Source: Arthrobacter sp. CJ23 (lineage in GTDB: Bacteria; Actinomycetota; Actinomycetes; Actinomycetales; Micrococcaceae). Taken from it: 64,000 nt of DNA. Position numbers and translations under genes: made by a program. Below, piece after piece: positions 32,880 to 59,464 of this stretch (position 1 is the first letter of the stretch; each line of letters begins with the position of its first letter). The notes beneath the pieces are model-generated. The model did no database searches. It was given only the letters and a program-made list of their open reading frames with translations, and was not told the DNA's origin. The stretch lies in the NCBI RefSeq assembly GCF_024741795.1, contig NZ_CP102950.1, positions 2,170,001 through 2,234,000 on the forward strand, read 5' to 3'.

Positions 32880-33590
32880 TCAGCGGCGGATGGAACCGCC
32901 GTCGACCACCAGGGTCTGCCCGGTCACGAACGAGGCGCCAGGGGAGAGGAAGAAACGGGTGGGACCCACGAAGTCCTCCACCACTGCCGCCCGCTTGATG
33001 GCACGGGTGCTGATGTTCGCTTCCTCGCCGCCTGCCAGCTTGGCCGCCAGCGGGGTGATCACTAGCCCGGGGGCCACCACGTTCACGGTGATGTTCCGCT
33101 CACCCATCTCCGCGGCGAGGCTGCGCGAGAAGCCGATGATGCCGGCCTTGGACGCAGCGTAGGCTGCGGCGCCCGCGGGGGCCTTGAACACGGTGCCGGA
33201 GGAGAACAGTACGATCCGGCCGCCATCCTCCACGAGGTCGGCGACACCCTGGATGAAGTTCAGCGTGCCGTGCAGGTTAAGGATCAGCGCACGTTCCCAC
33301 TCGGCTTTGGGCATGTCCATGAACGGACCGAAAACGCCGATGCCTGCACAGTGGACCAGCGAGTGGATGCTGGTGCGGCCCTGCGCCGCCAGGGCCGCGC
33401 GCACGTTGGCCGGGGCGTCACCGGCGACATCGCCGCTGACATAATTGACCCCGTCCAGCGGGTTGGCCGGTAGGGAACGGGAGACTGACGTGACGTCCCA
33501 GCCGTTTCTCAGATCCGCGGCCAGCGCCTCGCCGATGCCCGAGGAGCCGCCGCTGAGGACCAGTGCCGGGGAGGAGCCGCTTTCCGCCAT
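32880..33590 (-). CDS. SDR-family oxidoreductase
   Basis: A 236-residue classical SDR: GGSSGIG at residues 14-20, CAGIG at the NAG position, and Tyr144/Lys148 in AAYAASKAG; C-terminal GQTLVVDGGSIRR. Last gene of the minus-strand Baeyer-Villiger operon; its ATG overlaps the upstream hydrolase stop by one base (TAATG). It probably oxidises the alcohol precursor to the ketone used by the monooxygenase, or handles a hydroxy product of ester hydrolysis. Confidence 0.88.
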   Translation of the reverse strand: MAESGSSPALVLSGGSSGIGEALAADLRNGWDVTSVSRSLPANPLDGVNYVSGDVAGDAPANVRAALAAQGRTSIHSLVHCAGIGVFGPFMDMPKAEWERALILNLHGTLNFIQGVADLVEDGGRIVLFSSGTVFKAPAGAAAYAASKAGIIGFSRSLAAEMGERNITVNVVAPGLVITPLAAKLAGGEEANISTRAIKRAAVVEDFVGPTRFFLSPGASFVTGQTLVVDGGSIRR

Positions 33591-34489
33591 TACTTGCCGC
33601 CTTCAATGGTCGATTCGAGGAAGGCGCCGATGACGTTCCAGGTTTCCTGTGGGTGGGTGATGTTCGGGCAGTGCTTATAAGGCAGGAGCACGGCGCGGGC
33701 GTTCGGGAGCTCGGCCTGGAGGTTCATGGCCCAGCCGCTTTCCAGCAGCGTGTCGCCGGTGCACTCCACGAGCAGGGCCGGGGTGGCCACGCCCTGCAGC
33801 GGTGCGGGGAACGGATCGGCCGGGCGCACGACCTTCAGTGCCTCGGGAACCGGCATGTGCGGTCCGCGCATGGCGGTGAAGTGTCCGGGCGCGGTGGCCC
33901 AGCGCATGCGCGCATCGAGCTGGGCTTCCTTGTCCTCGGAGGGGTCACACAGGATGTCGACGATTTCCTCGAGGCGTTCGCGGGTGCCGTCGAAGTCGCC
34001 GATCCTGGCCATGTCCGGGGCCTTCCACGGGCCGCCGGTGCCGTTGATTGTGGTGACCGAGGCAATCCGGTCCCGATAGCCCTCATCGGCCAGTGCACGC
34101 AGGCCGATCGAGCCGCCGAACGAGTTGCCGACGATGTGCACGGGCTCGGTGATGCCCAGGGAATCGAGCAGCGAGAAGAGGTGGCGGATGCGGAAGGCGA
34201 ACGGAGAGACGTCCACGCGGATCGACTTGGCCGAGCCGCCGTAGCCGAGGAAGTCGGGGGCGATGACGCGGAACGTCTCCGCCGCGAGGGGAAGGACGTG
34301 GCTCCAGGTGACGTCGGAGCTGCCGCCCCAGGCACCGTCGTGCAGGAACACGACGGGAACCCCGTCGTCGGGGCCTCCCGAAAGGAAACGGGTTTCCAGG
34401 TTGGCGACGAGCGCGGTCGTCTCGGTGATCAAGGGTGTCTCGGTGAGCAAAGCAGCCTCCGTTGGAAAGGATCGGATGGTGGAAGTCAT
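33590..34489 (-). CDS. Alpha/beta hydrolase (esterase or C-C hydrolase type)
   Basis: A 299-residue alpha/beta-fold hydrolase: oxyanion motif VFLHDGAWGG near residue 50, nucleophile Ser123 in VGNSFGGSIG, and a C-terminal catalytic His region (YKHCPNITHPQE). The layout is MhpC/BphD-like. It is placed seven bases behind a Baeyer-Villiger monooxygenase, so hydrolysis of the ester or lactone product is the simplest role. Cleavage of a C-C bond in a dicarbonyl intermediate is an alternative. Confidence 0.85.
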   Translation of the reverse strand: MTSTIRSFPTEAALLTETPLITETTALVANLETRFLSGGPDDGVPVVFLHDGAWGGSSDVTWSHVLPLAAETFRVIAPDFLGYGGSAKSIRVDVSPFAFRIRHLFSLLDSLGITEPVHIVGNSFGGSIGLRALADEGYRDRIASVTTINGTGGPWKAPDMARIGDFDGTRERLEEIVDILCDPSEDKEAQLDARMRWATAPGHFTAMRGPHMPVPEALKVVRPADPFPAPLQGVATPALLVECTGDTLLESGWAMNLQAELPNARAVLLPYKHCPNITHPQETWNVIGAFLESTIEGGK

Positions 34490-34495
34490 GGGGAG

Positions 34496-36409
34496 TCAGC
34501 CGAGTTTGTAGTCTTCGGCGCGCACGCGGCTGGTGCGTTCGAAGTACTCGCGGGCAGGCAGCGGCCACATGATGGTGGAGCGGCCCTCGGCGTTCATGTA
34601 CCAGGAGTGGGTCTTGGACCAGCCCCAGGTGCGCTTGGCACTTTCGGTGGTGATTTGCTTGTCATACACGGCGAACACGTCATCGCGCAGGGCGAGGGAG
34701 CGGTGTCCGCCGGTGGCCAGCGTCTTGACGGCGTCGATGATGTAGTTGGCCTGGCATTCGAGGAAGAAGACCAGATTGCCGTGCACCACCGTGTTGGTGT
34801 TGGGGCCGTACATGCAGAAGAAGTTCGGGTAGCCGGGAAGCGTCACGCCCAGATAGGCGCTGGCGTCGATGCCCCAGGTCTGATGCAGGTCCTTGCCGTC
34901 GATGCCCGCCACGGACATGGGCAGCAGGAAGTCGGAGGCCTTGAATCCGGTGCCGAGCAGGATGATGTCGGCCGGGACGTGCTCGTCGCCGAGCCACACA
35001 CCGTCCTTGTCGATGCGGTTCACGCCCTGGCTGACCAGGCGTACGTTGTCCCGCTTGAGTGTCTTCACCCAGGTGCCGTCGTCGCAGATGATGCGCTTGG
35101 CCGCCGGCGGGTAGTTGGGAATGATCTGCTGGCGCAGTTCGTCATCGTCCCCGGCCTGCTCCTCCAGATAGGCGGTCAGCTCCTGGCGCAGCGCCTCGTT
35201 GGCGGCAGAGACCGAGAGCTCCGTCGGCGGGAAATCAGGGTCCACCGTGGCGGCCGGCAGGTTGCCGATCAAGCGCGGCAGGAAGATGGAGAAGCGGTAG
35301 TAGGCCCGGTACTGGTTCAGGTTGATCAGCAGCCAGCGTTCGCCGCTTTCGATTTCCTGGCGCAGCACGGGCGTGGGGCGCAGCCAGGGGGCGCTGCGCT
35401 GGAAGATGGTGACCTGCTCGGCGACCTTCGCGACGGCGGGTGCGAACTGAAGGGCGCTGGCGCCGGTGCCGATGACCACCACGCGCTTGTTGGCGAAGTC
35501 GATCCCGTGGTCCCACTGCGCGGAGTGCACCACCGGGCCGTTGAAGCTATCCAAGCCCGGGAGGTTGGGGATCGAAGGACGGTTGAGCTGGCCCACGGCA
35601 CTGACCACGATGTTGGATTCGATGGTTTCCCCGACGCCCTGGGCGGTCTTGGTTTCAAGGGACCAGGTTCCGGTTTCCTGATCCCAGCGGGTGGCTGTGA
35701 CCTCGGTGCCGAAGACCATGTGCTCGAGCAGGCCGTTGTCGGAAGCGAACTGGTGCAGGTAGCCGTGGATCCTGTCCTGGCGGCCGTAGTGGGTCTCCCA
35801 GTCGTGCTGTACGAAGGAGTACGTGTAGATGTGGCTGCGGACGTCCGTGCGGCAGTCGGGGTAGGTGTTTTCCCACCAGGTACCGCCGACTCCGACGCTC
35901 TTCTCGATGATCTTGAACGGAACGCCGGCCTGCTTCAGCCGGAGGCCGGCCAACAGGCCGGAGAACCCTGCACCGATCACCACCGCATTCAAGGCGCTGT
36001 CCGGGGCAACCGAGTCCAGTGTCCAGTCCGGCCGGCGCGGGTCCACCTTGTTGGGGGTGAACGCGACCTGGGCCATGACCTGGGCGTCCTCGTTCTCCCC
36101 ACCCATCAGCCAGGTGACGATCTTCCGGCGCATCGGCTCGCCAGGGACCGCTGCCCAGTCGTTCTGGGTGGCCAGGAAAGGTGCGAGCAGTTCGAAGCAA
36201 CGAGAGCGGGCTTCCGCCTCGGTTTCCGGATCCAGGCCGCTGAGCGGAAGCGTCTTCAGGTTCGGCCGCCATTCATCGCGCAGCACCGAGGCGTCTCCTG
36301 TGACGTGGGCCGTGAGCATGACCAGCGCCGGCACCTGGGCAGATGCGAGGTGGGCGGCGAGTCCTTCTTCGGTGACCTGCGTCGAGTTGCGTTCCAGGGT
36401 CTTGTTCAT
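34496..36409 (-). CDS. Baeyer-Villiger monooxygenase, 4-hydroxyacetophenone monooxygenase type
   Basis: A 637-residue type I BVMO that would use NADPH, FAD and O2 to turn a ketone into an ester or lactone. Rossmann motifs are GAGFSG (146-151) and GTGASA (314-319); between them is the BVMO fingerprint F-N-G-P-V-V-H-S-A-Q-W-D (289-300). GGTWWENTYP is also typical. The long N-terminal extension (~140 residues: TAHVTGDASVLRDEWRPNL) and the total length match HAPMO (HapE) as I recall it, rather than the ~540-residue cyclohexanone enzymes. HAPMO oxidises aryl ketones, but some relatives accept alicyclic ketones. It sits between two hydrolases in the operon. Confidence 0.9.
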   Translation of the reverse strand: MNKTLERNSTQVTEEGLAAHLASAQVPALVMLTAHVTGDASVLRDEWRPNLKTLPLSGLDPETEAEARSRCFELLAPFLATQNDWAAVPGEPMRRKIVTWLMGGENEDAQVMAQVAFTPNKVDPRRPDWTLDSVAPDSALNAVVIGAGFSGLLAGLRLKQAGVPFKIIEKSVGVGGTWWENTYPDCRTDVRSHIYTYSFVQHDWETHYGRQDRIHGYLHQFASDNGLLEHMVFGTEVTATRWDQETGTWSLETKTAQGVGETIESNIVVSAVGQLNRPSIPNLPGLDSFNGPVVHSAQWDHGIDFANKRVVVIGTGASALQFAPAVAKVAEQVTIFQRSAPWLRPTPVLRQEIESGERWLLINLNQYRAYYRFSIFLPRLIGNLPAATVDPDFPPTELSVSAANEALRQELTAYLEEQAGDDDELRQQIIPNYPPAAKRIICDDGTWVKTLKRDNVRLVSQGVNRIDKDGVWLGDEHVPADIILLGTGFKASDFLLPMSVAGIDGKDLHQTWGIDASAYLGVTLPGYPNFFCMYGPNTNTVVHGNLVFFLECQANYIIDAVKTLATGGHRSLALRDDVFAVYDKQITTESAKRTWGWSKTHSWYMNAEGRSTIMWPLPAREYFERTSRVRAEDYKLG

Positions 36410-36458
36410 TTCTTCTCCGTAAGGCAGTTGTCAAAAAGGACGGCGGGCTCGTTGGCCG

Positions 36459-37271
36459 TTAGCGTGTCCAGCAGTCCAGGCTGTCGAGGAACGGCCGCAC
36501 CGTTGCGGCGACCTCCTGCGGGTTCTCGAAGGCGAGCAGATGTCCGCCCTTCGCAAAGCGCAACTCGGCACCTCTGATTGAGGTGGCGAGCTGTTCGATC
36601 ACCGCACCGGGGATGCTCTGGTCGTCATCGCCGCCGATGACCAGGGTTGGCGGCGGCGAGTCCGTATGGAATTCGCCTACCTGGGTCATGGCTTCGAAAA
36701 ACTCGGCGATGGTGTTGCCGCCTGCCCCGAGGAACTGTGCGCGGGCCTGCCGCACCAGCGGGTCAGCGGCGTTCCCCGAACCTTCGCCGAACCAGCGGTG
36801 CATGGTCATTTCTTCGGCCTGTTCAAGCCCGTTCGGGGCCCGGACCTCGGCAGCGCGTGCCAGGGTTCCGCGGGTCGCTGCTTCGTCGTAGGCCCCCCGC
36901 GTTGCCACCAGGATCTGTGCGTCGACGCGGTGGGGGAAGCTGCCGGTGACGGCCTGGGCCACCATGCCGCCCAGCGAGATGCCCAGGATGACCGAGCTCT
37001 CGACGCTTTCGGCGTCCCACATGGCGGCGATGTCCTGTGCAACGAGTCCCAGCGTGGGGGCGGATTCTCCGCGCGCGCTTTCGCCATGTCCGCGGAAGTC
37101 CGGTGCGAGCAGCCGATAATCGCCGCCAAGCGCCTCGGCCAAGGGTGCATACCACGATCCGTCCAACGCCAAGGAGTGCAGGCAGGTGATCAGGCGCGGG
37201 CCGTTGCCGTGCTGGCGATAGGCCACCGAAGTGCCATCGGCACCCGCTACCTTCTGCAGGGTCTCAGCCAT
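36459..37271 (-). CDS. Alpha/beta hydrolase, 3-oxoadipate-enol-lactonase-like
   Basis: A 270-residue alpha/beta hydrolase: Ser99 in LGISLGGMVAQ, RGHGES at the strand-4 loop, and a C-terminal His in KGGHLLAFENP. The overall pattern resembles PcaD-type lactonases. The second hydrolase of the operon; one may open a lactone and the other an ester. It overlaps the ABC ATPase gene by eight bases, which ties import and degradation together. Confidence 0.85.
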   Translation of the reverse strand: MAETLQKVAGADGTSVAYRQHGNGPRLITCLHSLALDGSWYAPLAEALGGDYRLLAPDFRGHGESARGESAPTLGLVAQDIAAMWDAESVESSVILGISLGGMVAQAVTGSFPHRVDAQILVATRGAYDEAATRGTLARAAEVRAPNGLEQAEEMTMHRWFGEGSGNAADPLVRQARAQFLGAGGNTIAEFFEAMTQVGEFHTDSPPPTLVIGGDDDQSIPGAVIEQLATSIRGAELRFAKGGHLLAFENPQEVAATVRPFLDSLDCWTR

Positions 37272-38148
37272 GCTGGTTTTCCTCCCTGATGCGCTGTTCG
37301 GCGAGTTCGACTTCGCTCCGAAGGCGATCGGACATGTCGTGGAAATAGGACTTGAACAGATCGGAGTCCCGGCGCATCTCCTGGCGTCGCGGCCGTTCGA
37401 GCTCGATCTTCATGTCCACCACCATGCGGCCCGGCCGGCTGGCCATCAGGATAACGCGGTCGCTGAGGAGGATGGCTTCCTCGAGGTCGTGCGTAACGAA
37501 TATGACCGTGGGCCGCTCAGCTTCCCAGAGCTGGGTGAACTCCTCCTGCTGGATCGCGCGGGTCTGTGCATCAAGGGCTGCGAACGGCTCGTCCATCAGC
37601 AGGACCTTGGGGTTCTGCACCAGGGTGCGTGCGATGGCAACGCGCTGCCGCATGCCTTGGGAGAGGTGCAGGACATCGGAGTCGGCAAACTCGTGCAGGC
37701 GGACGCGGCGGAGCCAGGCCTCGGCGCGTTCGCGCCGCTCTTCCTTGGGCACTCCGCGGATTTCCATCCCGAGCTCGACGTTGCTGCGGACCCGGCGCCA
37801 GGGAAGAAGGGCGTCGCGGGCGAAGAGGAAAGCGGCGTCGTTGCTTCCGGGGCGCACATCGTGGCCATCGATGCGGACCGTGCCGCTGCGGGGCTTCAAG
37901 AGGTTGCCCACCATGCCGAGAGCCGTCGTCTTGCCGCAGCCCGACGGGCCCACAATGCTGACGAACTCGGAAGGCTCGATCCGCAGGTTGAAGTTGTCCA
38001 AGACCCGTACCGGCCGGTTGCCGTGCAGGAAGCTGTGGTTCACATTCTCGAACTCGACAGAAACACCTTTGGCTGCAGTGGGCTGCGCTGCCCTTGCAGT
38101 CACGAGAGTCTCACTATCGCCGGTTGAGCGGAGGGTTGAATTGGGCAT
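37264..38148 (-). CDS. ABC transporter ATP-binding protein (nitrate/sulfonate/taurine type)
   Basis: A 294-residue ATPase: Walker A GPSGCGKTT at residues 67-75, signature LSQGMRQR, Walker B VLLMDEPFAALD and switch His in VTHDLEEA. Subfamily features match SsuB/TauB-type importers. The matching permease is the second gene of the divergent unit (39376), and two lipoprotein receptors lie at 48145 and 51846. The frame starts at 38226, but GGAG six bases before the ATG at 38148 supports this start. Possibly controlled by the LysR-like site at 38360. Confidence 0.92.
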   Translation of the reverse strand: MPNSTLRSTGDSETLVTARAAQPTAAKGVSVEFENVNHSFLHGNRPVRVLDNFNLRIEPSEFVSIVGPSGCGKTTALGMVGNLLKPRSGTVRIDGHDVRPGSNDAAFLFARDALLPWRRVRSNVELGMEIRGVPKEERRERAEAWLRRVRLHEFADSDVLHLSQGMRQRVAIARTLVQNPKVLLMDEPFAALDAQTRAIQQEEFTQLWEAERPTVIFVTHDLEEAILLSDRVILMASRPGRMVVDMKIELERPRRQEMRRDSDLFKSYFHDMSDRLRSEVELAEQRIREENQHG

Positions 38149-38500
38149 TGTCGCTCCAGTCGTTATTTGCGGGGCCGACCCGGTTGGCAGTCTTCGTTGG
38201 CTGACGTTGTGCTGAGCCGGCACCAAGGATGATCACGCTGGAACAGCAATGAACACGAGGAAACCGGAAGGCTGATCCTGTGGTGCACGTCACCCACTGG
38301 TCCATGAATCGTTGAACACCTCGGCAAAAGAGTCAACCAAGACAGGCCTGATCCATGGCTATCGCCTCGATAGCGATTAGGACATTGCTCCCGGTCACGA
38401 ATGGAAGGAAGCTTTCTCAAACGCACCATTGCCACGAGGGCCCGCCATGCGGGAGATCAGCCGCACGCACAGTTGCGCGCATCAACCAGGAGGACGTCAG
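38149..38500. other. Divergent intergenic promoter region
   Basis: A 352-base gap between divergent operons (ABC ATPase/BVMO and SDR/permease) with no credible gene. It contains the TATC-N5-GATA palindrome at 38360, placed to control both directions, and is more AT-rich than its surroundings. Confidence 0.7.
38360..38372. promoter_or_regulatory. LysR-type box, site 1 (TATCGCCTCGATA)
   Basis: A near-palindrome TATC-GCCTC-GATA with T-N11-A spacing, preceded by TGGC. It lies 129 bases before the SDR start and 212 before the ATPase start. The same 12 of 13 bases, with the same TGGC before them, recur at 53125. Confidence 0.6.
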
Positions 38501-39334
38501 ATGACGAACACAGCCACCAACACCCGCAAGAAGTCGGGCCAGACCATATTCGATTTCACCGGCCAGGTCGTCATTGTGACGGGCGCTTCCGGCGGCATCG
38601 GCTCGGCGCTTGCCGACAAGTTCGCCCAGGCCGGCGCCGATCTGGTCCTGCACGGACGCAAGGCCGAGGCACTCGAAGCGAAGGCCGGGCAGATCCGCGA
38701 ACTCGGACGCAAGGCCATCGTGGTCACCGGCAACATCAAGGAACCAGAGACCGCCGATGCGCTGGTCCGCGCCGCCCTTGAGGAGTTCGGCCGCATCGAT
38801 GTCCTCATCAACAACGCCGGCGGCAACTTCGCTGCACGCCTCGAGGACCTGTCCGCCAACGCCTGGAACGCGACGATCGGCACCAACCTCAGCGGCGCCT
38901 TCCACGTCTCCGTCGCCTGCCTTCCCGTCTTCGAGAAGCAGGGTGGCGGAAACATCATCAACGTTGGCTCGGGCTCGGCGAACTATGCCCACCCGATGCG
39001 GGGCGCCTATGCCGCCGCCAAGGCGGGGCTAGCCTCGTTGACCAAGACCATGTCCTGGGAATGGGCCGACCGCGGCGTGCGCGCCAACTGCGTCGAGCCG
39101 GGCGCCACCCTGACCCCGTCCTCGCGCTTCGCCAACGCGGACGTCGAGAAGTCCTTCGGTGAGTTCCTGGCCCTGGGCCGTGTGGGCCTGCCGGAGGAAG
39201 TCGCGGACGCCTGCCTGTACCTGTGTTCCGACGCCTCCAGCTTCATCACCGGAACGGTCCTGCAGGTCACCGGCGGACCGCACACCTCTTCGCCGTTGGA
39301 TTCAAAGCTCGTCCGGGCACCGCGCAATGCGTGA
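38501..39334 (+). CDS. SDR-family oxidoreductase
   Basis: A 277-residue classical SDR: VTGASGGIG (26-34), INNAGGNFAARLED, and Tyr170/Lys174 in AYAAAKAGL. Similar to 2,4-dienoyl-CoA-reductase/FabG-like SDRs of catabolic operons. The frame opens earlier, but AGGAGG seven bases before the ATG at 38501 is decisive. First gene of a plus-strand unit with the ABC permease, divergent from the BVMO operon and probably sharing its control. Confidence 0.9.
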   Translation: MTNTATNTRKKSGQTIFDFTGQVVIVTGASGGIGSALADKFAQAGADLVLHGRKAEALEAKAGQIRELGRKAIVVTGNIKEPETADALVRAALEEFGRIDVLINNAGGNFAARLEDLSANAWNATIGTNLSGAFHVSVACLPVFEKQGGGNIINVGSGSANYAHPMRGAYAAAKAGLASLTKTMSWEWADRGVRANCVEPGATLTPSSRFANADVEKSFGEFLALGRVGLPEEVADACLYLCSDASSFITGTVLQVTGGPHTSSPLDSKLVRAPRNA

Positions 39335-39375
39335 TTCATCCAGCACTACCGAAGACCGCAACGGAAGGGTTTGAC

Positions 39376-40227
39376 ATGGCAACGATCGCCAAGGCGGACA
39401 CTCTGCTCGCCTCCGCAGGCTCGCCGGCCTACAACGACAACACGATCCTCGCGGAACGTCGCCGATCAAAGATCAAGCGGGAGCTGACCGTCTGGGCCCT
39501 GAGGATCGGTGCGCTCGCCGTCTTCGTCTTCAGCTGGTCCTTTGTGACGGGTCAGGGGATCATGGATCCGACGCTGGTTTCCACTCCGGGGGAGGTCGGG
39601 ACCTCCTTCGTCAAGCAATTGGGGGATGGGACCTTCTGGGTTGATGTGACCGCGACCTTTAGCGGCGCCATGGCCGGCTTGGTCTCCGGTGCGGCCCTCG
39701 GCATCCTGGCCGGCGTCATCTTCGCCCGCGTCGAGGTTCTGCATGTCGCGGCCAGGCCCTTCCTGACCCTGATGAACAGCCTTCCGCGCCCGGCATTGGC
39801 GCCGATCTTCATCCTCTGGTTCGGTCTGGGGTTCGGCCCGAAGGCCCTCGTTGCCTTCAGCGTCGTGTTCTTCGTGCTGATGACCAGCACGATGGGTGCC
39901 TTGCAGAGCATTGACCACGACATCAAGCAGCTGACCCAGTCGCTGGGTATGACGCGCAAGCAGCGCTTCTTCAAGATCGAACTGCCGTCGGCGCTGCCGT
40001 CCATCGTTGGCGGCCTGCGGCTTGGTGCGGTGTACTCGGTGCTCGGTGCAGTGGTCTCGGAAATGGTCGGCGCGTACACCGGCCTGGGCCAGCGGCTGGT
40101 GGTGGTGACCAACAACTTCCAGGTTTCGGAGACCTTTGCCATCCTGCTCGCCATGGGCCTGCTCTCGATGGTCCTGGACCTTTCCATCTCGGTCCTGCAG
40201 AAGCTCGTGACGAAGTGGACGCGGTAG
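39376..40227 (+). CDS. ABC transporter permease (SsuC/TauC type)
   Basis: A 283-residue inner-membrane permease with about six helices (helix 1 LRIGALAVFVFSWSF) and the EAA-loop region KIELPSALPSIVGGLRLGAVYSVLGAVVSEM. It should form a homodimer with the ATPase at 37264. GGAAGGGT lies before the ATG. Only one permease gene is present, which is normal for this subfamily, but it is unusually separated from both its ATPase (divergent) and its receptors (~8-12 kb away). Confidence 0.9.
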   Translation: MATIAKADTLLASAGSPAYNDNTILAERRRSKIKRELTVWALRIGALAVFVFSWSFVTGQGIMDPTLVSTPGEVGTSFVKQLGDGTFWVDVTATFSGAMAGLVSGAALGILAGVIFARVEVLHVAARPFLTLMNSLPRPALAPIFILWFGLGFGPKALVAFSVVFFVLMTSTMGALQSIDHDIKQLTQSLGMTRKQRFFKIELPSALPSIVGGLRLGAVYSVLGAVVSEMVGAYTGLGQRLVVVTNNFQVSETFAILLAMGLLSMVLDLSISVLQKLVTKWTR

Positions 40228-40435: not shown

Positions 40436-41338
40436 ATGAGATTTGCGCAGTTGCGCTACCTGGAGGCGGCGCTTCGAACCGGTTCGTTCCGGCAAGCCGC
40501 CAAGGAACTTGATATCTCGCAGCCGACCATCACCAACCAAGTGCAGCGGCTCGAAGAGGATTTGGGCGTCATACTGGTGACCCGCGGCGCCAAGGGGGTC
40601 CGGCCGACCTATGCGGCAGACAGGATCCTGCCGCACGTCGTCGCAGCGGTCCAGGCCGAGAAAATGCTGCGCGCCGAAGCCAGCGCCATCGGCGGCCTGA
40701 AACTGGGAACCGTGCGGCTCGGCACGGTGCCTGCTGGATCACAGACCATCCTTCCCCGGACGGTTAAACGACTCTTGACCGAATTTCCCAACGTACGTTT
40801 CGAGGTTGACGAGGGCCCGTCCAAGCAGGTGGTCCGCGGCGTCCTCAGCGGCCACCTCGACGTTGGCCTGGTGACCCGCCTGCCCGGCATCGAATTGACC
40901 CCGGCCGAAGACGCCTTGCTGCACCACATCGACCTGATCCAGGGCAGGCTGGTGCTGGCGGTCCCGGAGGGCCACCGGCTCGCCGAGAAGGATGACTTCG
41001 AGCCGTCCGACCTGGAGGGGGAGCCGCTGATCTTCCCCGCGGAGTCAAGCATCCTGCGTGTGGCGTGGGAACGGCTGCTTGAGGGCGTCGAGGCGAGGAT
41101 CGTCTACACCACCCCCAACGCGGAGGCCTCCCAAGCCATGGTGCGCGCCGGAGTCGGCATCTGCATGGCGAACACGCTCCTCGATTCGACCGTGAGCGGG
41201 AACGGTGTGTCGCTCGTTCCGCTTCCCTTCGAGTGGGCCCATGCCAGCACCTCGGCCATCGTCAGGAAGGACGAAGCCAGGTCCTCGGCCGTCCAGGCAT
41301 TCCTGCGCCTCCTGCGCGAAGCCGCCAAGACCTTCTAG
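40436..41338 (+). CDS. LysR-family transcriptional regulator
   Basis: A 300-residue LysR protein: winged helix (LRYLEAALRTGSFRQAAKELDISQPTITNQVQRLEEDLG) and effector domain with VRLGTVPAGSQTILP and GHLDVGLVTRLPG. GAAAGG precedes the ATG. It lies in the middle of the regulon and is one of two LysR candidates (the other at 59540) for the T-N11-A sites at 38360, 41508, 51677, 53125 and 59513. Followed by a T-tailed terminator. Confidence 0.9.
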   Translation: MRFAQLRYLEAALRTGSFRQAAKELDISQPTITNQVQRLEEDLGVILVTRGAKGVRPTYAADRILPHVVAAVQAEKMLRAEASAIGGLKLGTVRLGTVPAGSQTILPRTVKRLLTEFPNVRFEVDEGPSKQVVRGVLSGHLDVGLVTRLPGIELTPAEDALLHHIDLIQGRLVLAVPEGHRLAEKDDFEPSDLEGEPLIFPAESSILRVAWERLLEGVEARIVYTTPNAEASQAMVRAGVGICMANTLLDSTVSGNGVSLVPLPFEWAHASTSAIVRKDEARSSAVQAFLRLLREAAKTF

Positions 41339-41370: not shown

Positions 41371-41507
41371 CAATGGGCGGTGATGCCGCCGTCGTCGGGG
41401 CCATTTCGTGTGCCCCCACGACGGCGGCTGACGCCTTCTGCGGTACCCCTCACCCCTGCTTTTGCCCTGCCGCCGCGCCCTGTGGACAACCTCCGATAGC
41501 GCAGTGG

Positions 41508-41520
41508 TATCACCCTGCCA
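41508..41520. promoter_or_regulatory. LysR-type box, site 2 (TATCACCCTGCCA)
   Basis: TATC-ACCCT-GCCA, with GATAGC 13 bases before it forming a further dyad (GATA-N9-TATC). It lies 102 bases before the ligase start, in the 250-base gap after the LysR terminator. It shares TATCACCCTGC with site 3. Confidence 0.5.
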
Positions 41521-41621
41521 GCGCTGGCGGCCTTCCCAGGGGTCGGGTTCACTCACGAGACTGAAATCACGCCGGGCGACCGCTTGCCGCCCGGATCCGA
41601 CGTCCAGTGAGGTGCCCCCAG

Positions 41622-46819: not shown

Positions 46820-47043
46820 AGATGGCAGAGACAATTCAGGCAGACATGGGCGCCAACGTGTGGAAGATCCTCGTTGCGCCGGGTGACCGCGTGGAGGAAG
46901 ACGACGTCTTCATGATCCTCGAAGCCATGAAGATGGAAATTCCGGTCACGGCCGAGGACTCCGGCACCGTACTGGAAGTCCACGTGGCCGAAGGCGACGT
47001 GGTTGCCCCCGGTCAGCCGCTCATCAAGTTCGAGGCGGAGTAG
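46816..47043 (+). CDS. Biotin carboxyl carrier protein (short)
   Basis: A 75-residue biotinyl domain; Lys39 in LEAMKMEIPV is the biotin site. It consists of little more than the lipoyl-like fold. The ATG overlaps the biotin carboxylase stop (ATGA), AAAGGAG precedes it; the in-frame ATG at 46822 is an alternative with better spacing. It completes a three-subunit carboxylase with separate CT, BC and BCCP. Confidence 0.93.
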   Translation: MKMAETIQADMGANVWKILVAPGDRVEEDDVFMILEAMKMEIPVTAEDSGTVLEVHVAEGDVVAPGQPLIKFEAE

Positions 47044-51590: not shown

Positions 51591-51600
51591 GCAGGTCCGA

Positions 51601-51639: not shown

Positions 51640-51676
51640 GTGTCCGCACTTATCTACGCCGATGATCGGGGATCGC

Positions 51677-51845: not shown

Positions 51846-52967
51846 ATGTTTGAGTCACAAAATGGCGGATCGCCCCGTGGGGATCTGCAGGCATGGGACA
51901 ACGGAATCGCGCGCCGATCACTGTTGAGGTATGCGGGACTTGGCGCGGCGGCACTGGGTTCTGCCTCGTTGCTGGCGGCCTGTGGTAGCAACCAGGGACC
52001 CGCGGCATCAGCCGCAACGCACAAGTTCACCGTCGCGGCGTTCCCCGGCGATGCGTACTTCCTCGACACCATGAACATGGAAAACAAGATCTACGCGCAG
52101 CACCGACTCGAAGTTCCCAAGCACATCACACCGCAAAGTGGCGTCCAGGCATTCCAGCTGCTGGTTGCAGGTGCCGTGGACGGCTACGCAGCCGACACGG
52201 GGCTGCTGATGGCAACCCACGCGAACAGTTCCAAGGGCAAGCGTCCGGTGTTGGTTGGTTTCCGCAACCTGGAAACCACGTACGGGATCGTTGGCGGCCC
52301 GGACAGCCAGTGGCCGGCAGCCGATGCAGGCTTCGAAGAGAAGATGCACGCCCTGAAGGGCAAGAAGATCGGCGTCACGGCAGTCGGCGCCGGTGGCGAC
52401 CTGCAGTTGCGGTTGGCCCTTGAATTGGCGGGCATGAAGGACAGTGACGTCACGGTGCTTGCCGTCGGCCCCACCGCCCAGGCGATCCCGAACGTCAAAG
52501 CCAAGCGCATTGACGCATATGTTGGCGTCCAGTGGACGGCAACGCGGTTCATTGCCAAGGAAACCGGCGGGACGATCCTGCTGGACTTTGCCGAGGCCAG
52601 CGCGCCGGAGTTGCTGCGCAACCAGGCAGTTGTCGCTATTGCCGTCCGCGAAGAGATGGCGCTGCAGCAGCCTGAAGTTGTGCAGAACTGGCTGGCCGCG
52701 CAGGAAGCTGCCAGCAAAAGGATCGGTGACAACAAGGAAGCGGCAGCCCGGCTGCTCAACGACAACGGCCTTGGCGGCAAGGCGCCCGACATCGCCACCG
52801 AGTACGTCGAGCACTACATTGCGGATGTGCAGCCCAAGCTGAGCCCGATGTTCAAGGCAAGGAAGGACACGGTGGAAAGAATGTCCGAACTCGCGCTGCG
52901 TTTTGGCAGCGTCAAGAAGGGCGACATCACCTATGAGCAGCTCGTCCCTGAATTCGCGCGCGCGTAA
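51846..52967 (+). CDS. ABC transporter substrate-binding lipoprotein 2 (Tat-exported)
   Basis: A 373-residue paralogue of the receptor at 48145: same length, same opening MFESQxGGSP, twin arginines 23-24, lipobox Cys46 (LLAAC) and same LVPEFARA end. Many substitutions are spread over the binding lobes, so substrate range may differ. It is transcribed alone. A 27-bp tandem repeat runs over its stop codon. Confidence 0.9.
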   Translation: MFESQNGGSPRGDLQAWDNGIARRSLLRYAGLGAAALGSASLLAACGSNQGPAASAATHKFTVAAFPGDAYFLDTMNMENKIYAQHRLEVPKHITPQSGVQAFQLLVAGAVDGYAADTGLLMATHANSSKGKRPVLVGFRNLETTYGIVGGPDSQWPAADAGFEEKMHALKGKKIGVTAVGAGGDLQLRLALELAGMKDSDVTVLAVGPTAQAIPNVKAKRIDAYVGVQWTATRFIAKETGGTILLDFAEASAPELLRNQAVVAIAVREEMALQQPEVVQNWLAAQEAASKRIGDNKEAAARLLNDNGLGGKAPDIATEYVEHYIADVQPKLSPMFKARKDTVERMSELALRFGSVKKGDITYEQLVPEFARA

Positions 52968-53003
52968 GCCGGAACGGAATTCGCGCGCGCGTAAGCCGGA
53001 ACG
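52950..53003 (+). repeat. Exact 27-bp tandem repeat over a stop codon
   Basis: Two identical 27-bp units (52950-52976 and 52977-53003), each containing GCGCGCGCGTAAGCC. The first holds the last codons and TAA of the second receptor gene; the second repeats them out of frame context. It looks like a slippage or short duplication. Confidence 0.97.
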
Positions 53004-53033
53004 CAATCCCACAAACGCCTGGGCAGGACCAAC

Positions 53034-53072
53034 GTCCCCGTGCACCGCACCTGCGGCACGGGGACATTCTTG
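53034..53072 (+). terminator. Hairpin terminator after the second receptor gene
   Basis: Outer stem GTCCCCGTGC / GCACGGGGAC with an inner CGC/GCG stem, followed by ATTCTTGT. It resembles the 51601 terminator in sequence, which fits duplication of the receptor locus together with its 3' flank. Confidence 0.75.
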
Positions 53073-53124
53073 TCTCAAAGGCAGCCGCGGTCAGCTGTCA
53101 AGCAATCGCCCGCTGCCACCTGGC

Positions 53125-53137
53125 TATCGCCTTGATA
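53125..53137. promoter_or_regulatory. LysR-type box, site 4 (TATCGCCTTGATA)
   Basis: TATC-GCCTT-GATA preceded by TGGC, identical to site 1 except for one central base, 49 bases before the reductase start. Confidence 0.6.
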
Positions 53138-53185
53138 CGTTCTGTGAGATTGATTACAGCGATGCTTTGCCCGGATGATCGTCGT

Positions 53186-54202
53186 ATGACTACTACTGCC
53201 GATTCGCTCAGCGTCGACGAATCCTCGACCTCCAGGCCCGTTGCCGCTCGCCCTGGAATCCAGTCCCTCCGGGTCGCACGCAAGGAAGTCATCGCCGACG
53301 GCGTCGTGCGCTTGCGACTGGAGGAACCGCGCAACGGCCGCGTCCCTGACTGGGCGCCGGGTTCACACATCGAACTGATGCTCCCGACCGCGGACGCTGG
53401 AACCCTCTCGCGCCACTATTCCCTGTGTGGCGACCGCTGGGACCCACATGCGTACGAGGTCGCGGTGCTGAACGAACCGAACTCCAAGGGCGGCTCACGC
53501 TACATCCACGAGCAGCTCGCGGTCGGAGACAGGCTCACCGTGGGAACCCCCCGCAACAACTTCCACCTGTCCCAGGCGACCCGCTACGAGTTCATTGCCG
53601 GCGGCATCGGGATCACCCCGATCATGACGATGATCGTTGCAGCCGAGCAGCTCGGCATCGATTGGCACCTGCACTACGGCGGCCGCACGCGTGCCTCGAT
53701 GGCCTTCCTGGACGAGCTGGCCCAGTACGGGGACAAGGTCACCATCTGGCCGCAGGACGAACTGGGCCACCTGAACCTCACCTTCCTAAATGAACCGCTC
53801 GACGGCGGACGCGTCTACTGCTGCGGACCGGAACCGCTGCTGAACGCAGTGGCCGGCGCCGCCTCCGGGTGGCCGTCCTGGGCGGTGCGATTCGAACGCT
53901 TCGTCCCGGCAACCTTGCCGGCCCCCGTACGGACCGAGCCGTTCGAGCTCGAGCTGGCACTCTCCAAGAAGTGCATCACGGTCGGGACCGAGGAAACAGT
54001 GCTTTCGGCGTTAAGCGATGCCGGCGTCCCCGTGCTCTCCTCGTGCAACGAAGGCGTGTGCGGCACCTGTGAGGTCAGCGTCCTGCGGGGCACCCCGGAG
54101 CACCGTGACTCTCTGCTGAATGACGCCGAGCGAGCCAAGAACGACCGAATGTTTGTCTGTGTCTCACGCGCGATCACCGATCGCCTTGTGCTGGATCTTT
54201 AG
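53186..54202 (+). CDS. Phthalate-dioxygenase-reductase-type oxidoreductase (flavin + [2Fe-2S])
   Basis: A 338-residue VanB/PDR-type reductase: flavin domain (HYSLCGDRWDPHAYEVAV), NAD domain (EFIAGGIGITPIMTMI, YCCGPEPLL) and a C-terminal plant-type [2Fe-2S] domain with Cys287, Cys292, Cys295 (SSCNEGVCGTC) and a last Cys in FVCVS. It passes electrons from NAD(P)H to an oxygenase. The usual partner is a Rieske oxygenase, but the next gene, 14 bases on, is a P450. Start ATG 53186 lacks a clear SD; the frame opens at 53132. Confidence 0.9.
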   Translation: MTTTADSLSVDESSTSRPVAARPGIQSLRVARKEVIADGVVRLRLEEPRNGRVPDWAPGSHIELMLPTADAGTLSRHYSLCGDRWDPHAYEVAVLNEPNSKGGSRYIHEQLAVGDRLTVGTPRNNFHLSQATRYEFIAGGIGITPIMTMIVAAEQLGIDWHLHYGGRTRASMAFLDELAQYGDKVTIWPQDELGHLNLTFLNEPLDGGRVYCCGPEPLLNAVAGAASGWPSWAVRFERFVPATLPAPVRTEPFELELALSKKCITVGTEETVLSALSDAGVPVLSSCNEGVCGTCEVSVLRGTPEHRDSLLNDAERAKNDRMFVCVSRAITDRLVLDL

Positions 54203-54215
54203 GAGCTACCCACCC

Positions 54216-55433: not shown

Positions 55434-55450
55434 GGTGGTTCAAGGGACGC

Positions 55451-55490
55451 CATGCCGGCGTCGGGATCACACGCTCCCGACGCCGGCATG
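55451..55490 (+). terminator. Hairpin after the P450 gene
   Basis: A perfect 16-bp stem (CATGCCGGCGTCGGGA / TCCCGACGCCGGCATG) with an 8-base loop, 17 bases after the stop; no T tract. Confidence 0.7.
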
Positions 55491-55501
55491 CGGCCCATGG
55501 G

Positions 55502-55600
55502 GGACCGTCGTTTGACGTGCCCTGGCCACCACCGCGAAATCCCTGGAACCTGGCCCGTGTCACGGGAGGTTCGTCAAGTGGTTCGGCGGCAGCGATCGCG
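55502..55600 (+). pseudogene. Amidase-signature gene fragment
   Basis: One frame reads GPSFDVPWPPPRNPWNLAR followed by TGGSSSGSAAAIA, which matches the active-site block of amidase-signature enzymes (N-P-W-N/D, then GGSSSGS with catalytic Ser). Only ~33 codons survive, with no start and no further similarity on either side. It is a relic of a deleted amidase gene. Confidence 0.65.
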
Positions 55601-55726
55601 TGCCATCGACAATGCCAGGGAACTAGACATCAGGATCAGCGTCTCGGTGTGTGAGCCGGAGGGCGGCTCCCGACCTTCGGACGCATGGATGGCGGCCTGC
55701 ACAGCAAACACACGAACGATGTGTCA

Positions 55727-56375
55727 ATGATTCACGACATCCGTACCTACCAAGTCGATCGAAGTGATCCACGTGTGGCCCTACCAGGACCAGGCCGAGC
55801 GCACCGAGCTGCGGGCCCGCGCCGCCCAGCACCCGAACCGGCCCCCGGCCCCGGGTGGACTCGTCAACCGGTTGATGGTGGAGCGGGTCATCCCCTTCGA
55901 CATCGTTGAAGAGCGGGCACCCGGCGCCATCGGACCGGTCTTCGAAATCCGGTTGACTACTTACTTCACAGTCTCGGAGCTTCGCGCCGCCGATGAGGCC
56001 TGGTCGACGGCGATCAAGGAACGCAGCCAGCATGGCTCGCTCGTTAGGGCCGGGCGGATGGAGTTCGGGCAGAGCAACGGGATCGTCCAGATCTGGGCGC
56101 ACCCCAACGACGAGCACCGGGTACGCGAAGCCGCCGCGGCCGGGGCAATGCCGCCCATCGATGGTCGGGTGCCGACATCGACCGTGGTGAAGCGCCTGGC
56201 GCCGTCGGTGTTTTCGCCTTTTCAGCAGGTGCTCAGGATGATCCGTGGTGTGCCTTCAGCGCGCGAGCTCGAACAGACCGGCGGCTCCCATGCCGCCACC
56301 TACGCACATGGAAATGACAGCGAATTGCTGGTCCCGGCGCCGGGCCTCGAGCAGTGCAGTGCCAACCGCCCGTGA
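55727..56375 (+). pseudogene. NIPSNAP gene with internal deletion and frameshift
   Basis: The ATG at 55727 opens with MIHDIRTYQV, a typical NIPSNAP start. The continuation EVIHVWPYQDQAERTELRARA is in another frame, from codon 55761, and a second NIPSNAP-like half follows (FEIRLTTYFTVSELRAADEAW, GIVQIWAHPNDEHRVRE). Compared with the intact protein at 16890, about 40 residues between RTY and the VIHVW equivalent are missing. The open frame then runs past PSVFSPF into the antisense 3' end of the thiolase gene. A shorter product could start at GTG 55764. Confidence 0.7.
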
Positions 56376-57458
56376 ACCGGTCATTCCGTAGGGGTGGCCC
56401 AGGGCGATCGCACCGCCGTTGACGTTCATCCTTTCCGGGTCGATCCCCAGGACATCACGGCAGTAGACCGCCTGGGACGCGAAGGCTTCATTCAGTTCCC
56501 AGATCCCGATGTCCTCAACGGTGAGGCCGTGGTTCTTCAAGAGCCGTGGAATGGCCGTGACCGGTCCAATGCCCATTTCATCGGGTTCGCACCCGGTCAC
56601 GGCAATGCCGCAGTAGTAGCCAAGAGGTGACAAGCCCAAGGACGCGGCATAGTCGCTGTTCATCAACACGTTCGCCGAGGCCCCGTCGGACAGCTGCGAG
56701 GCGTTGCCGGCTGTCACGGTCGGGTTCGCCGTGAAGTCACCGGGCATCAGTACCGTGCGAAGCCCGGCAAGGGTTTCGAATGTGGTGCCGGCGCGCACGC
56801 CCTCGTCCTGGGAGACGAGTTGCTCGAATTCCGTGACTTCACCGCTTTCCTTGTCGGTCCTCAGCATGGTCACGCGGATCGGCGCAATCTCGTCATCGAA
56901 GCTGCCGGTTTCCTGGGCCCGCGCTGCCCGTTGCTGGGAGGCGGCCCCCATTTCGTCCTGCGCCTCGCGGCTGATCCCGTAGCGCTCGGCCACGAGTTCG
57001 GCGGTCTGCAGCATGGGCATGTAGGCGCCCGGGTGGTTGGCCTCAATCCAGGGATCGCGGCTGCGGAACTTGTTGATGTGTTGGTTCTGCACCAGCGAAA
57101 TGGACTCGACCCCGCCGCCAATTGCCACATTCATGGAATCCGCGAGGATCTGCTTGGCCGCCGTGGCGACCGCCATCAACCCCGACGAGCACTGCCTGTC
57201 AATGGTCTGCCCGGGAACCGTCACCGGCAAGCCGGCGCGCAGTGCGCCTTGGCGGGCGACGTTGAAGCCTTGCGTTCCCTGTTGCGCGGCGGCACCCATG
57301 ATGACGTCCTCGACCAGCGACGGGTCGATGCCAGTCTTGGCCAGTGCCGCGGCAATCGCGTGCCCGGCCAGTTCAGGGGCGGAGGTGTTGTTGAAGGCCC
57401 CGCGGTGCGCCTTGCCGATGGGGGTGCGGGCTGTTGCCACGATGGCGGCTCTGGGCAT
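56256..57458 (-). CDS. Thiolase (acetyl-CoA C-acyltransferase)
   Basis: A 400-residue thiolase: Cys90 in [15 protein letters not shown], His in [15 protein letters not shown] and Cys in [21 protein letters not shown] seven bases before the ATG sets the start, although the frame is open to 57683. It would cleave the 3-ketoacyl-CoA made by the SDR at 57999. Last gene of a four-gene minus-strand unit; its end overlaps the broken NIPSNAP gene. Confidence 0.92.
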
Positions 57459-57528
57459 GGTGGTGCTCCTTCGTGAAGGGGTCTTCGGCATATGCGGGGC
57501 AGAGCAGGACGAACGATCTTGCCTCGGT

Positions 57529-58002
57529 TCAGGCGGCAGTGGCCTCGTAGAGCCGGGAGACCACCTCGGCCACACAGCCTGGCTTCTTCGCCTCGCCATT
57601 GAGTTCCTGTTCGACCGTGACCTGGACTGTTGCCTGTGCCCACGTGTCCTCGCGGTCAACGGACACCAGCTTGACCCGGCCACGCACGCTTGAGCCGACC
57701 AGGACCGGGGCCGGGTAACGGACCTTGTTCGATCCGTAGTTCACGCCCATGGACATTCCGCCGATGCGGTAGGTGTCGAACATGAACCCGGCCACCAGCG
57801 AGAGCGTCATGTAGCCGTGCACCAGCGTGGTACCAAACGGGCCTGAGGCCGCACGCTCGGTGTCGACGTGGATCCACTGGTAGTCGTTGGTCACCTTGGC
57901 GAACGCATTGATGTCTTCCTGGGTGATGGTGCGCCATTCGGTGACGCCGATTTCCTCACCCACACACTGTGCGAAGTGGTCGATGCCGCTGAAGATCCTC
58001 AT
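57529..58002 (-). CDS. MaoC-type (R)-enoyl-CoA hydratase
   Basis: A 157-residue hot-dog hydratase: GEEIGVTEWRTITQEDINAF and catalytic dyad Asp40/His45 in NDYQWIHVD (D-x4-H), then GPFGTTLVHGYMTLSL. It hydrates 2-enoyl-CoA, probably to the (R)-3-hydroxy form, which suits the FabG-like SDR upstream. The ATG overlaps the SDR stop (ATGA). Confidence 0.92.
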   Translation of the reverse strand: MRIFSGIDHFAQCVGEEIGVTEWRTITQEDINAFAKVTNDYQWIHVDTERAASGPFGTTLVHGYMTLSLVAGFMFDTYRIGGMSMGVNYGSNKVRYPAPVLVGSSVRGRVKLVSVDREDTWAQATVQVTVEQELNGEAKKPGCVAEVVSRLYEATAA

Positions 58003-58757
58003 GCCTTCGGTCCGCCCGCCACGTACAGCACCTGGCCGGAAACGAACCCGGCGTCCTCGGAGGCGAAGAAGGACACGGCGTTGGCGATGTCCGCGGGCTT
58101 GCCGGTGCGGCGCACCGGGATCGCCGCGGCGGCCTTGGCGGTGAATTCCTCGAAAGTGATGCCCATGCGCTCGGCGGTGGAGGCCGTCATCTCGGTTTCG
58201 ATGAAGCCGGGGGCGATCGCGTTGGCGGTCACGCCGAAGGGGCCCAATTCCAGGGCAAGGGTCTTGGTGAAGCCCTGCAGTCCTGCCTTGGCCGCCGAGT
58301 AGTTGGCCTGGCCGCGGTTGCCCAGGGCAGAAGTGCTGGAGAGGTTGACGATGCGGCCCCACTTGGCCTCGACCATGTGCTTCTGGGTAGCGCGGGCCAC
58401 CAGGAAGGATCCGCGCAGGTGCACGTTCATGACCAGGTCCCAGTCGGAGAGCGACATCTTGAAGAGCAGGTTGTCGCGGATGATGCCTGCGTTGTTGACC
58501 ACCACCACGGGAGGGCCAAGTTCGTCGGCGGTGCGGGTGACGGCGGCCTCGACGGCGGCCTCGTCCGAGATGTCGGCGACGATGCCGATGGCCCGGTAGC
58601 CGGCGGCGGTTAGCTCGGCAGTGAGGGCATCGAGTCCTGCCTGGTCGAGGTCGATCGCTGCGATGTTGAATCCGTCGGACGCCAGGCGCCGGGCAATGTC
58701 GGCGCCGATGCCGCGTCCTGCTCCGGTTACCAGTGCGGTGCGCTGCTGTTCAGTCAT
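57999..58757 (-). CDS. FabG-like SDR, 3-hydroxyacyl-CoA dehydrogenase candidate
   Basis: A 252-residue SDR: TGAGRGIG (11-18), VVNNAGI, Tyr153/Lys157 in NYSAAKAGLQGFTKTLALE, ending GQVLYVAGGPKA. Very similar in layout to FabG/PhaB. Placed with MaoC hydratase and thiolase, so it probably oxidises (R)-3-hydroxyacyl-CoA. The frame is open far upstream; the ATG at 58757 directly precedes the fold. Confidence 0.9.
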   Translation of the reverse strand: MTEQQRTALVTGAGRGIGADIARRLASDGFNIAAIDLDQAGLDALTAELTAAGYRAIGIVADISDEAAVEAAVTRTADELGPPVVVVNNAGIIRDNLLFKMSLSDWDLVMNVHLRGSFLVARATQKHMVEAKWGRIVNLSSTSALGNRGQANYSAAKAGLQGFTKTLALELGPFGVTANAIAPGFIETEMTASTAERMGITFEEFTAKAAAAIPVRRTGKPADIANAVSFFASEDAGFVSGQVLYVAGGPKA

Positions 58758-58810
58758 GATGAAAACCTGTTTCCTTCTCTTGGGTGAAGCCGATCCCTGT
58801 CCCTGCCCGC

Positions 58811-59464
58811 TTAGCGGTAAGTGACCCAGGAACGGGGAAGATGGCCATGGTCGTTGAATGTCACCATCGTCTTCCCGGACGAACCGGTGACGATCTTGGT
58901 GACGCCGGAATTCACGGTGACCCGGTTGAGTGCGAGCCATTGGGGAAATCCGCCGTTGAGAAGCCGGGCTGCTGCCCAGGCAATGGCTCCCGAGCTGGAG
59001 ACGACCACTGCGTCCTGACCCGATCCGAGCCCTTCGACTGCGCTGTCCAGGGCCCTGTCGACGCGCTGTGTGAACGCGGAGAACGACTCCAGATAGTCGG
59101 CGTCGTGGTTGTTGGAGGCCCAGCGGGCGGAGGCCTTCTCGAGCAGTCGCTGGAAGGCCCGCGAATCGGTCTTCGCGGTGGGGTCGTCCTCCGGATAGGC
59201 GTTCAGCAGATCGGAGGCGTTGAATTCGTCCCAGCCCGGATCGACGACGGGAGCCGTGTCCCAGCCGGCGCCCTCGATGAGTCCCTGTGCCGTTTGGCGC
59301 TGGCGCTTCATGCCGCCGCTGACGATGCGGCTCGGAACGGTTCCGCACAGGCCCAGGTGGGTGCCGAGGGCTTGACTCTGGTCCTTGCCGCGGGGCGACA
59401 ACCGGTCGTAGTCTTCGGTGCCGAAAGATGCTTGTCCGTGCCGGACCAAATAGAGAACACTCAC
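58811..59464 (-). CDS. Histidine phosphatase family protein
   Basis: A 217-residue phosphoglycerate-mutase-fold phosphatase: LVRHGQASFG holds the phospho-His, GGMKRQRQTAQ the conserved Arg, and VVVSSSGAIAWAAARLL the second-His position, where Ser/Gly stands instead of the usual His (VVVSHGG in relatives). It heads the MaoC/SDR/thiolase unit. The pairing with a phospho-acyl-CoA pathway is interesting but may be chance. Start GTG 59464 or GTG 59485. Confidence 0.78.
   Translation of the reverse strand: MSVLYLVRHGQASFGTEDYDRLSPRGKDQSQALGTHLGLCGTVPSRIVSGGMKRQRQTAQGLIEGAGWDTAPVVDPGWDEFNASDLLNAYPEDDPTAKTDSRAFQRLLEKASARWASNNHDADYLESFSAFTQRVDRALDSAVEGLGSGQDAVVVSSSGAIAWAAARLLNGGFPQWLALNRVTVNSGVTKIVTGSSGKTMVTFNDHGHLPRSWVTYR

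Follow-up and report, generated by a model that had tools for sequence, protein, structure and literature searches.

Baeyer–Villiger cleavage, biotin-dependent carboxylation and the removal of a hydroxyl group by phosphorylation and elimination are described apart in the literature that we found. The lva operon of Pseudomonas putida and the mammalian ACAD10 and ACAD11 proteins combine an APH-type kinase with an acyl-CoA dehydrogenase (ACAD) and convert 4-hydroxyacyl-CoA to 2-enoyl-CoA (PMC12440821, PMC11342911). In the catabolic operons of the Hpe/Acv/Xcc hydroxyphenylethanone pathways, a CoA ligase accompanies a biotin-dependent carboxylase of three components, and HpeCBA sets the example that a carboxylase of this class can act on ketones; acpAB of Rhodococcus rhodochrous GD02 places an acetophenone Baeyer–Villiger monooxygenase (BVMO) beside an esterase (both PMC9618137). 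Here we describe a locus of Arthrobacter sp. CJ23 that would join these three chemistries. It lies in a 64,000-nucleotide stretch (the window; NZ_CP102950.1, positions 2,170,001 to 2,234,000) of a genome consisting of one 4.63-Mb contig. Searches of open-licence papers listed none on this locus or on its combination of genes.

The locus is an island of about 30 adjoining genes at positions 25113–60463 of the window, wider than the segment 32880–59464 considered in an initial annotation. Every enzyme named there is present about where it had been placed, namely the short-chain dehydrogenases (SDRs), the BVMO, two alpha/beta hydrolases, the acyl-CoA ligase, the APH kinase, the ACAD11-type dehydrogenase, the MaoC-type hydratase, the FabG-like SDR, the thiolase, the P450 (together with a reductase) and the importer. 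Missed or underrated were a full carboxylase set, a histidine phosphatase superfamily gene (HisP, 58811–59485) and a beta-oxidation operon (25113–30599). The genes may well form a catabolic island, partly co-regulated, that acts on an organic acid taken up from outside, a proposal that we hold to be evenly balanced. A more specific and more novel reading, to which we assign a probability of roughly 35%, is an undescribed aerobic pathway found in several actinobacterial families: P450, SDR, BVMO and hydrolase would open the imported acid, a carboxylase of a new class, its oxyanion holes altered, would carboxylate the CoA-activated (or ketone) intermediate, an LvaA/ACAD11-type pair would strip a C4 hydroxyl, and one LysR-type operator would govern the set. 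Gene starts come from a home-made caller, which missed sdrB at first pass. Families were assigned with Pfam and NCBIfam.

The association of these genes is not a matter of chance, because it is syntenic in a congener and because BVMO and ligase are neighbours in nearly all carriers. In the congener (G022), almost the whole set forms one island that includes the beta-oxidation operon and the HisP–FabG–MaoC–thiolase unit; it differs in that this unit stands on the opposite side and no SBP2 match is present. When 60 other genomes of the genus were examined, G022 alone proved to carry orthologues of the BVMO (89%) and of the carboxyltransferase (CT; 97%), with the other listed matches reaching at most 39% and 33%, respectively, so the island is patchy within the genus. 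The closest named relatives of the CT, among the matches listed, are from Arthrobacter species. For wider comparison we used 17 named actinobacterial genomes with the CT (loci L049–L065), many of them drafts, so that a position on another contig gives no distance. The genes for ligase, CT, biotin carboxylase (BC) and biotin carboxyl carrier protein (BCCP) occur in that order in all 17 (BC is split in two in L063). In the 16 genomes other than that of Aeromicrobium piscarium, the BVMO lies 2.8–15.3 kb from the ligase on the same contig.

In the window, a complete carboxylase is encoded inside the apparent ligase–kinase–ACAD11 operon on the forward strand. This comprises the ADP-forming acyl-CoA ligase (LIG, 41607–43844), CT (43847–45421), BC (45434–46819), BCCP (46816–47043; 75 amino acids with an EAMKM biotin site), a quinone/enone reductase-like dehydrogenase (MDR, 47047–48063), an NMT1-type substrate-binding protein (SBP1, 48145–49266), the LvaA/ACAD11-type kinase (APH, 49263–50348) and the ACAD11/LvaC-type dehydrogenase (AD11, 50349–51590). 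The tight spacing (successive gaps of 2, 12, −4, 3, 81, −4 and 0 bp) makes it very probable that a single transcript covers the genes for ligase, carboxylase, kinase and dehydrogenase. The kinase has HGDFRLDN, which matches HGDxxxxN with its catalytic Asp and Asn, and scores 189 bits against 3dxp, 175 against 9o56 and 170 against ACAD11. The nearest match of AD11 is ACAD11 (439 bits), and the AD11 motif RLGPGRIHHCMR has the spacing of R626, R631, H634 and R637 (HCMR) of mouse ACAD11, residues reported for 4-hydroxyacyl-CoA dehydroxylation (PMC12440821). Where this module would have a catalytic Asp instead of the Glu usual in ACADs, we read FADGPDEVH by eye, as the pairwise alignment stops short of that stretch. 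Like the lva and ACAD10/ACAD11 systems, the locus thus has an APH-type kinase and an ACAD with the HCMR motif and the upstream arginine, although here the pair stands with a BVMO, a P450, an importer, an ADP-forming ligase and a biotin carboxylase. These residues suggest that kinase and dehydrogenase could act on 4-hydroxyacyl-CoA as LvaA/LvaC and ACAD10/11 do, and to that extent they support the kinase/ACAD11 chemistry proposed in the initial annotation.

The BVMO gene lies on the reverse strand, as do sdrA (32880–33590, an SDR that is syntenic in relatives), hydA (33590–34489, an alpha/beta hydrolase with GNSFG), hydB (36459–37271, a PcaD-like alpha/beta hydrolase with GISLG) and the ATPase of a NitT/TauT-type ABC importer (37264–38226, with an uncertain TTG start). 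The enzyme itself (34496–36409; 637 amino acids) has an N-terminal extension and belongs to type I, with the fingerprint FNGPVVHSAQW at residue 289 and GxGxx[GA] motifs at 146, 314 and 486. Its likeness to HAPMO consists of the N-terminal extension and database names. Two metagenomic proteins in which HydB and BVMO are fused (P0027 and P0037) tie HydB to the BVMO product and make hydrolysis after the BVMO step likely, as had been proposed. A BVMO with an adjacent esterase recalls acpAB; AcpA is PAMO-like, however, with 55% identity to PamO (PMC9618137), whereas the window BVMO is extended at its N terminus and has ligase, carboxylase and importer genes in its surroundings.

Among solved structures, the best match of the CT is a propionyl-CoA carboxylase beta subunit, and the CT shares a fold family with canonical propionyl- and acetyl-CoA carboxylase CTs, yet their GG and GG/GA motifs are replaced by GS and GQ/GR. 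Throughout a set made up of the window CT and the best 120 of 4344 matches (121/121), GS stands for GG, W for Y, Q or R for G or A, and N for A or V when compared with seven canonical CTs. By analogy with PccB structures, these motifs would be the oxyanion holes. In a quick tree of 152 rows with some long branches, the subfamily and the canonical CTs separate into clades of 91 (SH-aLRT 99) and 43 rows. If a row is labelled as changed when RKxYG is followed by Q, R, L, M or H, 88 of the 91 rows carry the label and the remaining three have K or I. The label also occurs in seven of eight rows of a second clade, which contains partner CT genes (33–36%), so its state changed more than once (five changes). 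The clade with changed motifs is broad: the 120 relatives listed, all with changed motifs, include members of the actinobacteria and proteobacteria as well as Neobacillus, Sporosarcina and Planococcus, under generic carboxylase labels as database names.

The family to which genome G110 belongs was searched for a genome with HpeB. Among its 297 genomes, 79 have a CT match at E ≤ 1e-75, and in 30 CT loci the second motif is changed in that of G110 only; the 29 others are canonical in the second motif, and in the first motif 27 are canonical and two are unmatched by the search pattern. Apart from G110 itself, the CT matches listed in this family reach at most 39%. A biotin-motif scan of the 30 CT stretches was uninformative, with no match even for G110, whose BCCP is cut off.

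One reading of a PCC-like carboxylase adjacent to BVMO, hydrolase and ligase is propionate salvage, in which BVMO and esterase would free propionate, to be turned into methylmalonyl-CoA by ligase and carboxylase. The best structural match of the CT suits it, but the CT falls outside the canonical clade and lacks the canonical motifs, and a search of 19 genomes for methylmalonyl-CoA mutase gave no match in nine (the host G000, G022 and the seven others of the Arthrobacter group searched). For lack of a mutase match, the propionyl- to succinyl-CoA route is rejected in the Arthrobacter group, unless methylmalonyl-CoA is used otherwise, and we regard propionate salvage as very improbable.

The carboxylase might also act on a ketone. 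In an aryl- or methyl-ketone route it would make a beta-keto acid, LIG its CoA ester and thiolase the split, with the BVMO acting on a second ketone. Such a route would fit the 2-bp gap between LIG and CT, the constant order of LIG, CT, BC and BCCP in the 17 loci, CT motifs unlike those of acyl-CoA carboxylases, and the HpeCBA precedent (PMC9618137). Against it stand the components in which the locus departs from Hpe. The window has no two-subunit PEP-synthase-like kinase (HpeHI), and the two PPDK_N matches in the genome lie in frames of 855 and 996 amino acids, from which size we judge HpeHI to be absent from the genome; neither a HAD phosphatase (HpeD-like) nor an AMP-forming ligase (HpeE-like) appeared among the locus genes scanned with Pfam. 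The BCCP of 75 amino acids is short against the 17.4 kDa of HpeC, and the window order is CT–BC–BCCP. The literal Hpe pathway is rejected because these scans found no such kinase, phosphatase or AMP-ligase, and the Hpe/Acv family, which the initial annotation had offered as its main alternative, does not account for the locus. A variant that carboxylates a ketone is possible, and the ketone route as a whole seems to us unlikely.

Other genomic settings of the carboxylase were also noted. In L126, a Polaromonas metagenome-assembled genome, the carboxylase–ligase genes are followed by genes resembling those for biotin synthesis (AAA_26 and aminotransferases of class III and class I/II), which hints at a link between the supply of biotin and the carboxylase. 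The gram-negative relatives in L093 and L126 occur with PRISE-like enone reductases and MmgE/PrpD proteins, and these two stretches have no BVMO match. Several proteobacterial loci (L068–L072 and the plasmid loci L128–L130) have at least two different carboxyltransferase genes, which in L128–L130 lie beside CoA-transferases and TctC-type binding proteins. The annotated plasmid cousins and gram-negative loci gave no clue to the substrate.

Evidence for co-regulation comes from a putative LysR-type operator, found through 8-mers common to the ABC/sdrB and LIG promoters, which led to the box CTATC-N5-GATAG. The window contains two exact copies of its core, TATC-N5-GATA, where 0.05 would be expected. 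The site at 38360 (GGCTATCGCCTCGATAGCG, 38357–38375, the best in the 64 kb) is in the gap between the importer/BVMO unit and sdrB, and that at 53125 (GGCTATCGCCTTGATACGT, 53122–53140) is ahead of the reductase (FNR) and P450 genes. Across the whole genome the core has 8 occurrences and its reversed control 4; the core alone is therefore not unique, and position is the telling feature. The 17 related loci contain 24 exact sites in 346 kb, compared with one in their flanking stretches (n = 16, 306 kb). Fifteen of the 17 have an exact operator, the exceptions being L060 and L064, and in 12 (L049–L059 and L062) it falls within the gap between the ABC and sdrB matches. In the genome of L060, an operator site was found in another stretch (L215), between permease and ATPase genes. 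FNR and P450 follow AD11 in seven loci, and six have an exact site ahead of FNR; that of L057 has one mismatch.

When the window is scored with a matrix built solely from other genomes, its two exact sites come first and second, and a site (59510–59528) in the 54-bp gap ahead of HisP comes third. In six of nine loci a site lies 23–25 bp 5′ of HisP (p 0.006–0.028 each). The initial annotation had claimed one regulon for the entire set. The shared operator supports this at three promoters (BVMO/importer unit, P450 unit and HisP–FabG–MaoC–thiolase unit); the signal is weak at the ligase operon and at SBP2 in the window, and the claim does not extend to ACADx. The candidate regulator is LysR2 (40436–41338, forward strand), whose homologue adjoins the ligase in 14 of the 17 loci. 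The operator offers a direct handle on the pathway, as an inducer screen with one reporter could reveal the substrate class.

The P450 (54216–55433, forward strand) is CYP199-like. It is 56% identical, over the aligned part, to the CYP199A demethylase PbdA of the Rhodococcus jostii RHA1 PbdA/PbdB system, and likewise has its reductase adjacent: FNR (53132–54202, forward strand) is an NAD-dependent reductase with a C-terminal 2Fe-2S domain, whose start is uncertain, since the listed TTG start overlaps the operator. PbdA is reported to hold the carboxylate with a triad of Arg84, Ser87 and Ser237 (PMC11530827). We assigned the triad positions by spacings of 3 and 153 in seven cluster P450s (those of the window, L050, L053, L054, L056, L057 and L063; L051 and L052 are not in the set). 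All seven keep the equivalents of Arg84 and Ser237, but have Gly for Ser87 and lack five residues in the loop before Arg84. Identification of the P450 as PbdA itself is rejected on the missing Ser87 equivalent and loop residues. The cluster enzymes appear to be CYP199-like with a changed pocket loop, possibly of use for acids that PbdA rejects.

Taking these observations together, we hypothesize the following order of steps. The ABC importer would take up an acid, which the CYP199-like P450 and FNR would hydroxylate or dealkylate while holding its carboxylate, as the kept Arg84 and Ser237 equivalents suggest. SDR or MDR enzymes could oxidize the new hydroxyl to a ketone, next to which the BVMO would insert oxygen, and HydB would cleave the resulting ester or lactone, an order that the fusions support. 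LIG would make the CoA thioester, and the unusual carboxylase may add CO2 to the thioester or to a linked ketone. If the product bears a C4 hydroxyl, APH could phosphorylate it and AD11 eliminate the phosphate to give a 2-enoyl-CoA, and MaoC, the FabG-like SDR and thiolase would complete the breakdown, with the ACADx operon taking the remainder; HisP may, as a guess, clear stalled phospho-compounds. We put the chances that this account holds as a whole at about even. A substrate that would suit the kinase and ACAD11, though not the carboxylase, is 4-oxocyclohexanecarboxylate: its opening would give the 4-hydroxy acid 2-(2-hydroxyethyl)glutarate, from which acetyl-CoA and glutaryl-CoA would follow. 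The scheme of the initial annotation, ring opening by the BVMO followed by removal of the hydroxyl, is plausible in view of the residues, the fusions and the shared operator. It is incomplete, because it leaves the carboxylase idle, and this gap weighs most heavily against taking it for the whole pathway.

Several observations weigh against a single pathway as we read it. No one step order employs every gene, and the carboxylase has no sure place. L058 and L062 have CYP105-like P450s instead, and L058, L059 and L062 have a ferredoxin-reductase-like gene, so the hydroxylase varies while the downstream part stays. The site at the HisP promoter is absent in three of the nine loci (L201, L203 and L206). 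The LIG promoter has a weaker version of the operator, TATCACCCTGCCAG (degenerate operator TGGTATCACCCTGCCAGCG, 41505–41523; empirical p about 0.07 in the window); a similar site does recur 116–119 bp 5′ of LIG in six of the nine loci L049–L057 (L049, L050, L052, L053, L056 and L057), and L054 has an operator-like sequence 198 bp 5′ of LIG. A matrix scan found no operator site at the ACADx promoter of the window, and of seven ACADx upstream stretches from elsewhere only L194 reached p 0.01. LysR2 stays a candidate for operator binding, because L059, L062 and L065 have the operator and no LysR2 homologue in the fetched DNA. Finally, in five of the 17 genomes (G109 and G111–G114) the closest AD11 is on a different contig from the ligase.

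This last point touches the joining of BVMO to kinase and ACAD11 proposed in the initial annotation, which does not make up the core of the set across relatives. Eleven of the 17 genomes have AD11 no more than 12 kb from the ligase, G115 with a partial gene at a contig end; in A. cavernae, APH is at a contig end and a piece of AD11 on another contig. With AD11 off-contig in five and ligase and carboxylase accompanying the BVMO in 16, the stable partnership in these sequences is that of BVMO and hydrolase with ligase and carboxylase, and APH/AD11 is a frequent addition, in the Arthrobacter group and some others. Three of the five genomes have an sdrC or MaoC homologue beside the off-contig AD11. 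More broadly, 7 of 12 fetched AD11 stretches (L210–L213, L215, L218 and L220) have an sdrC homologue (68–83%) and L214, L216, L217, L219 and L221 do not, while a MaoC homologue (46–51%) is present in L211, L212, L213 and L219; L215 and L218 are from genomes in which the BVMO core is near. These associations away from the core, and the ACADx operon of the window with no shared operator, could point to two pathways, one of BVMO, P450, ligase and carboxylase and another of APH, AD11, HisP, FabG, MaoC and thiolase, serving separate compounds, with a joint induction that would reflect the origin of both compounds in the same plant material. Yet APH and AD11 of the window are in a tight operon with LIG and the carboxylase, and the HisP unit shares the operator in most of the loci compared. 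We consider two pathways improbable, if still worth keeping in view, and retain the single pathway as the preferred reading.

Among the AD11 stretches, L218 of Arthrobacter sp. MYb227 (G105:C12:283001-303000) continues the cluster: another BVMO (69%), about 35 kb away from the first one, stands there with an additional AD11 (79%), two P450s, the HisP–FabG–MaoC–thiolase unit and two exact operator sites.

The remaining genes of the island lie on both strands. On the forward strand are sdrB (38501–39334, in an open frame of 38429–39334), encoding an SDR, the importer permease (39376–40227, BPD_transp_1) and a second NMT1-type substrate-binding protein (SBP2, 51846–52967). The reverse strand encodes the thiolase (thioC, 56256–57458), the MaoC-type hydratase (57529–58002), the FabG-like 3-ketoacyl reductase (sdrC, 57999–58757), HisP and LysR3 (59540–60463). 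Also on the reverse strand, the beta-oxidation operon comprises an ACAD (25113–26273), a 3-hydroxyacyl-CoA dehydrogenase (inside 26321–27448), an enoyl-CoA hydratase (inside 27205–28062), a PcaF-type thiolase (28014–29240) and ACADx (29307–30599); sdrA is its neighbour in three relatives (G022, P. siccitolerans and A. hankyongi). An 822-bp interval (55434–56255) separates P450 from thioC; it resembles a coding remnant by eye, and the single frame scanned in it (55623–56117) gave no Pfam match. Outside the island, an SDR and two consecutive FAD_binding_2 flavoproteins at 17224–21033, with genes for an MFS transporter and an IclR regulator next to them, form a separate catabolic-looking unit.

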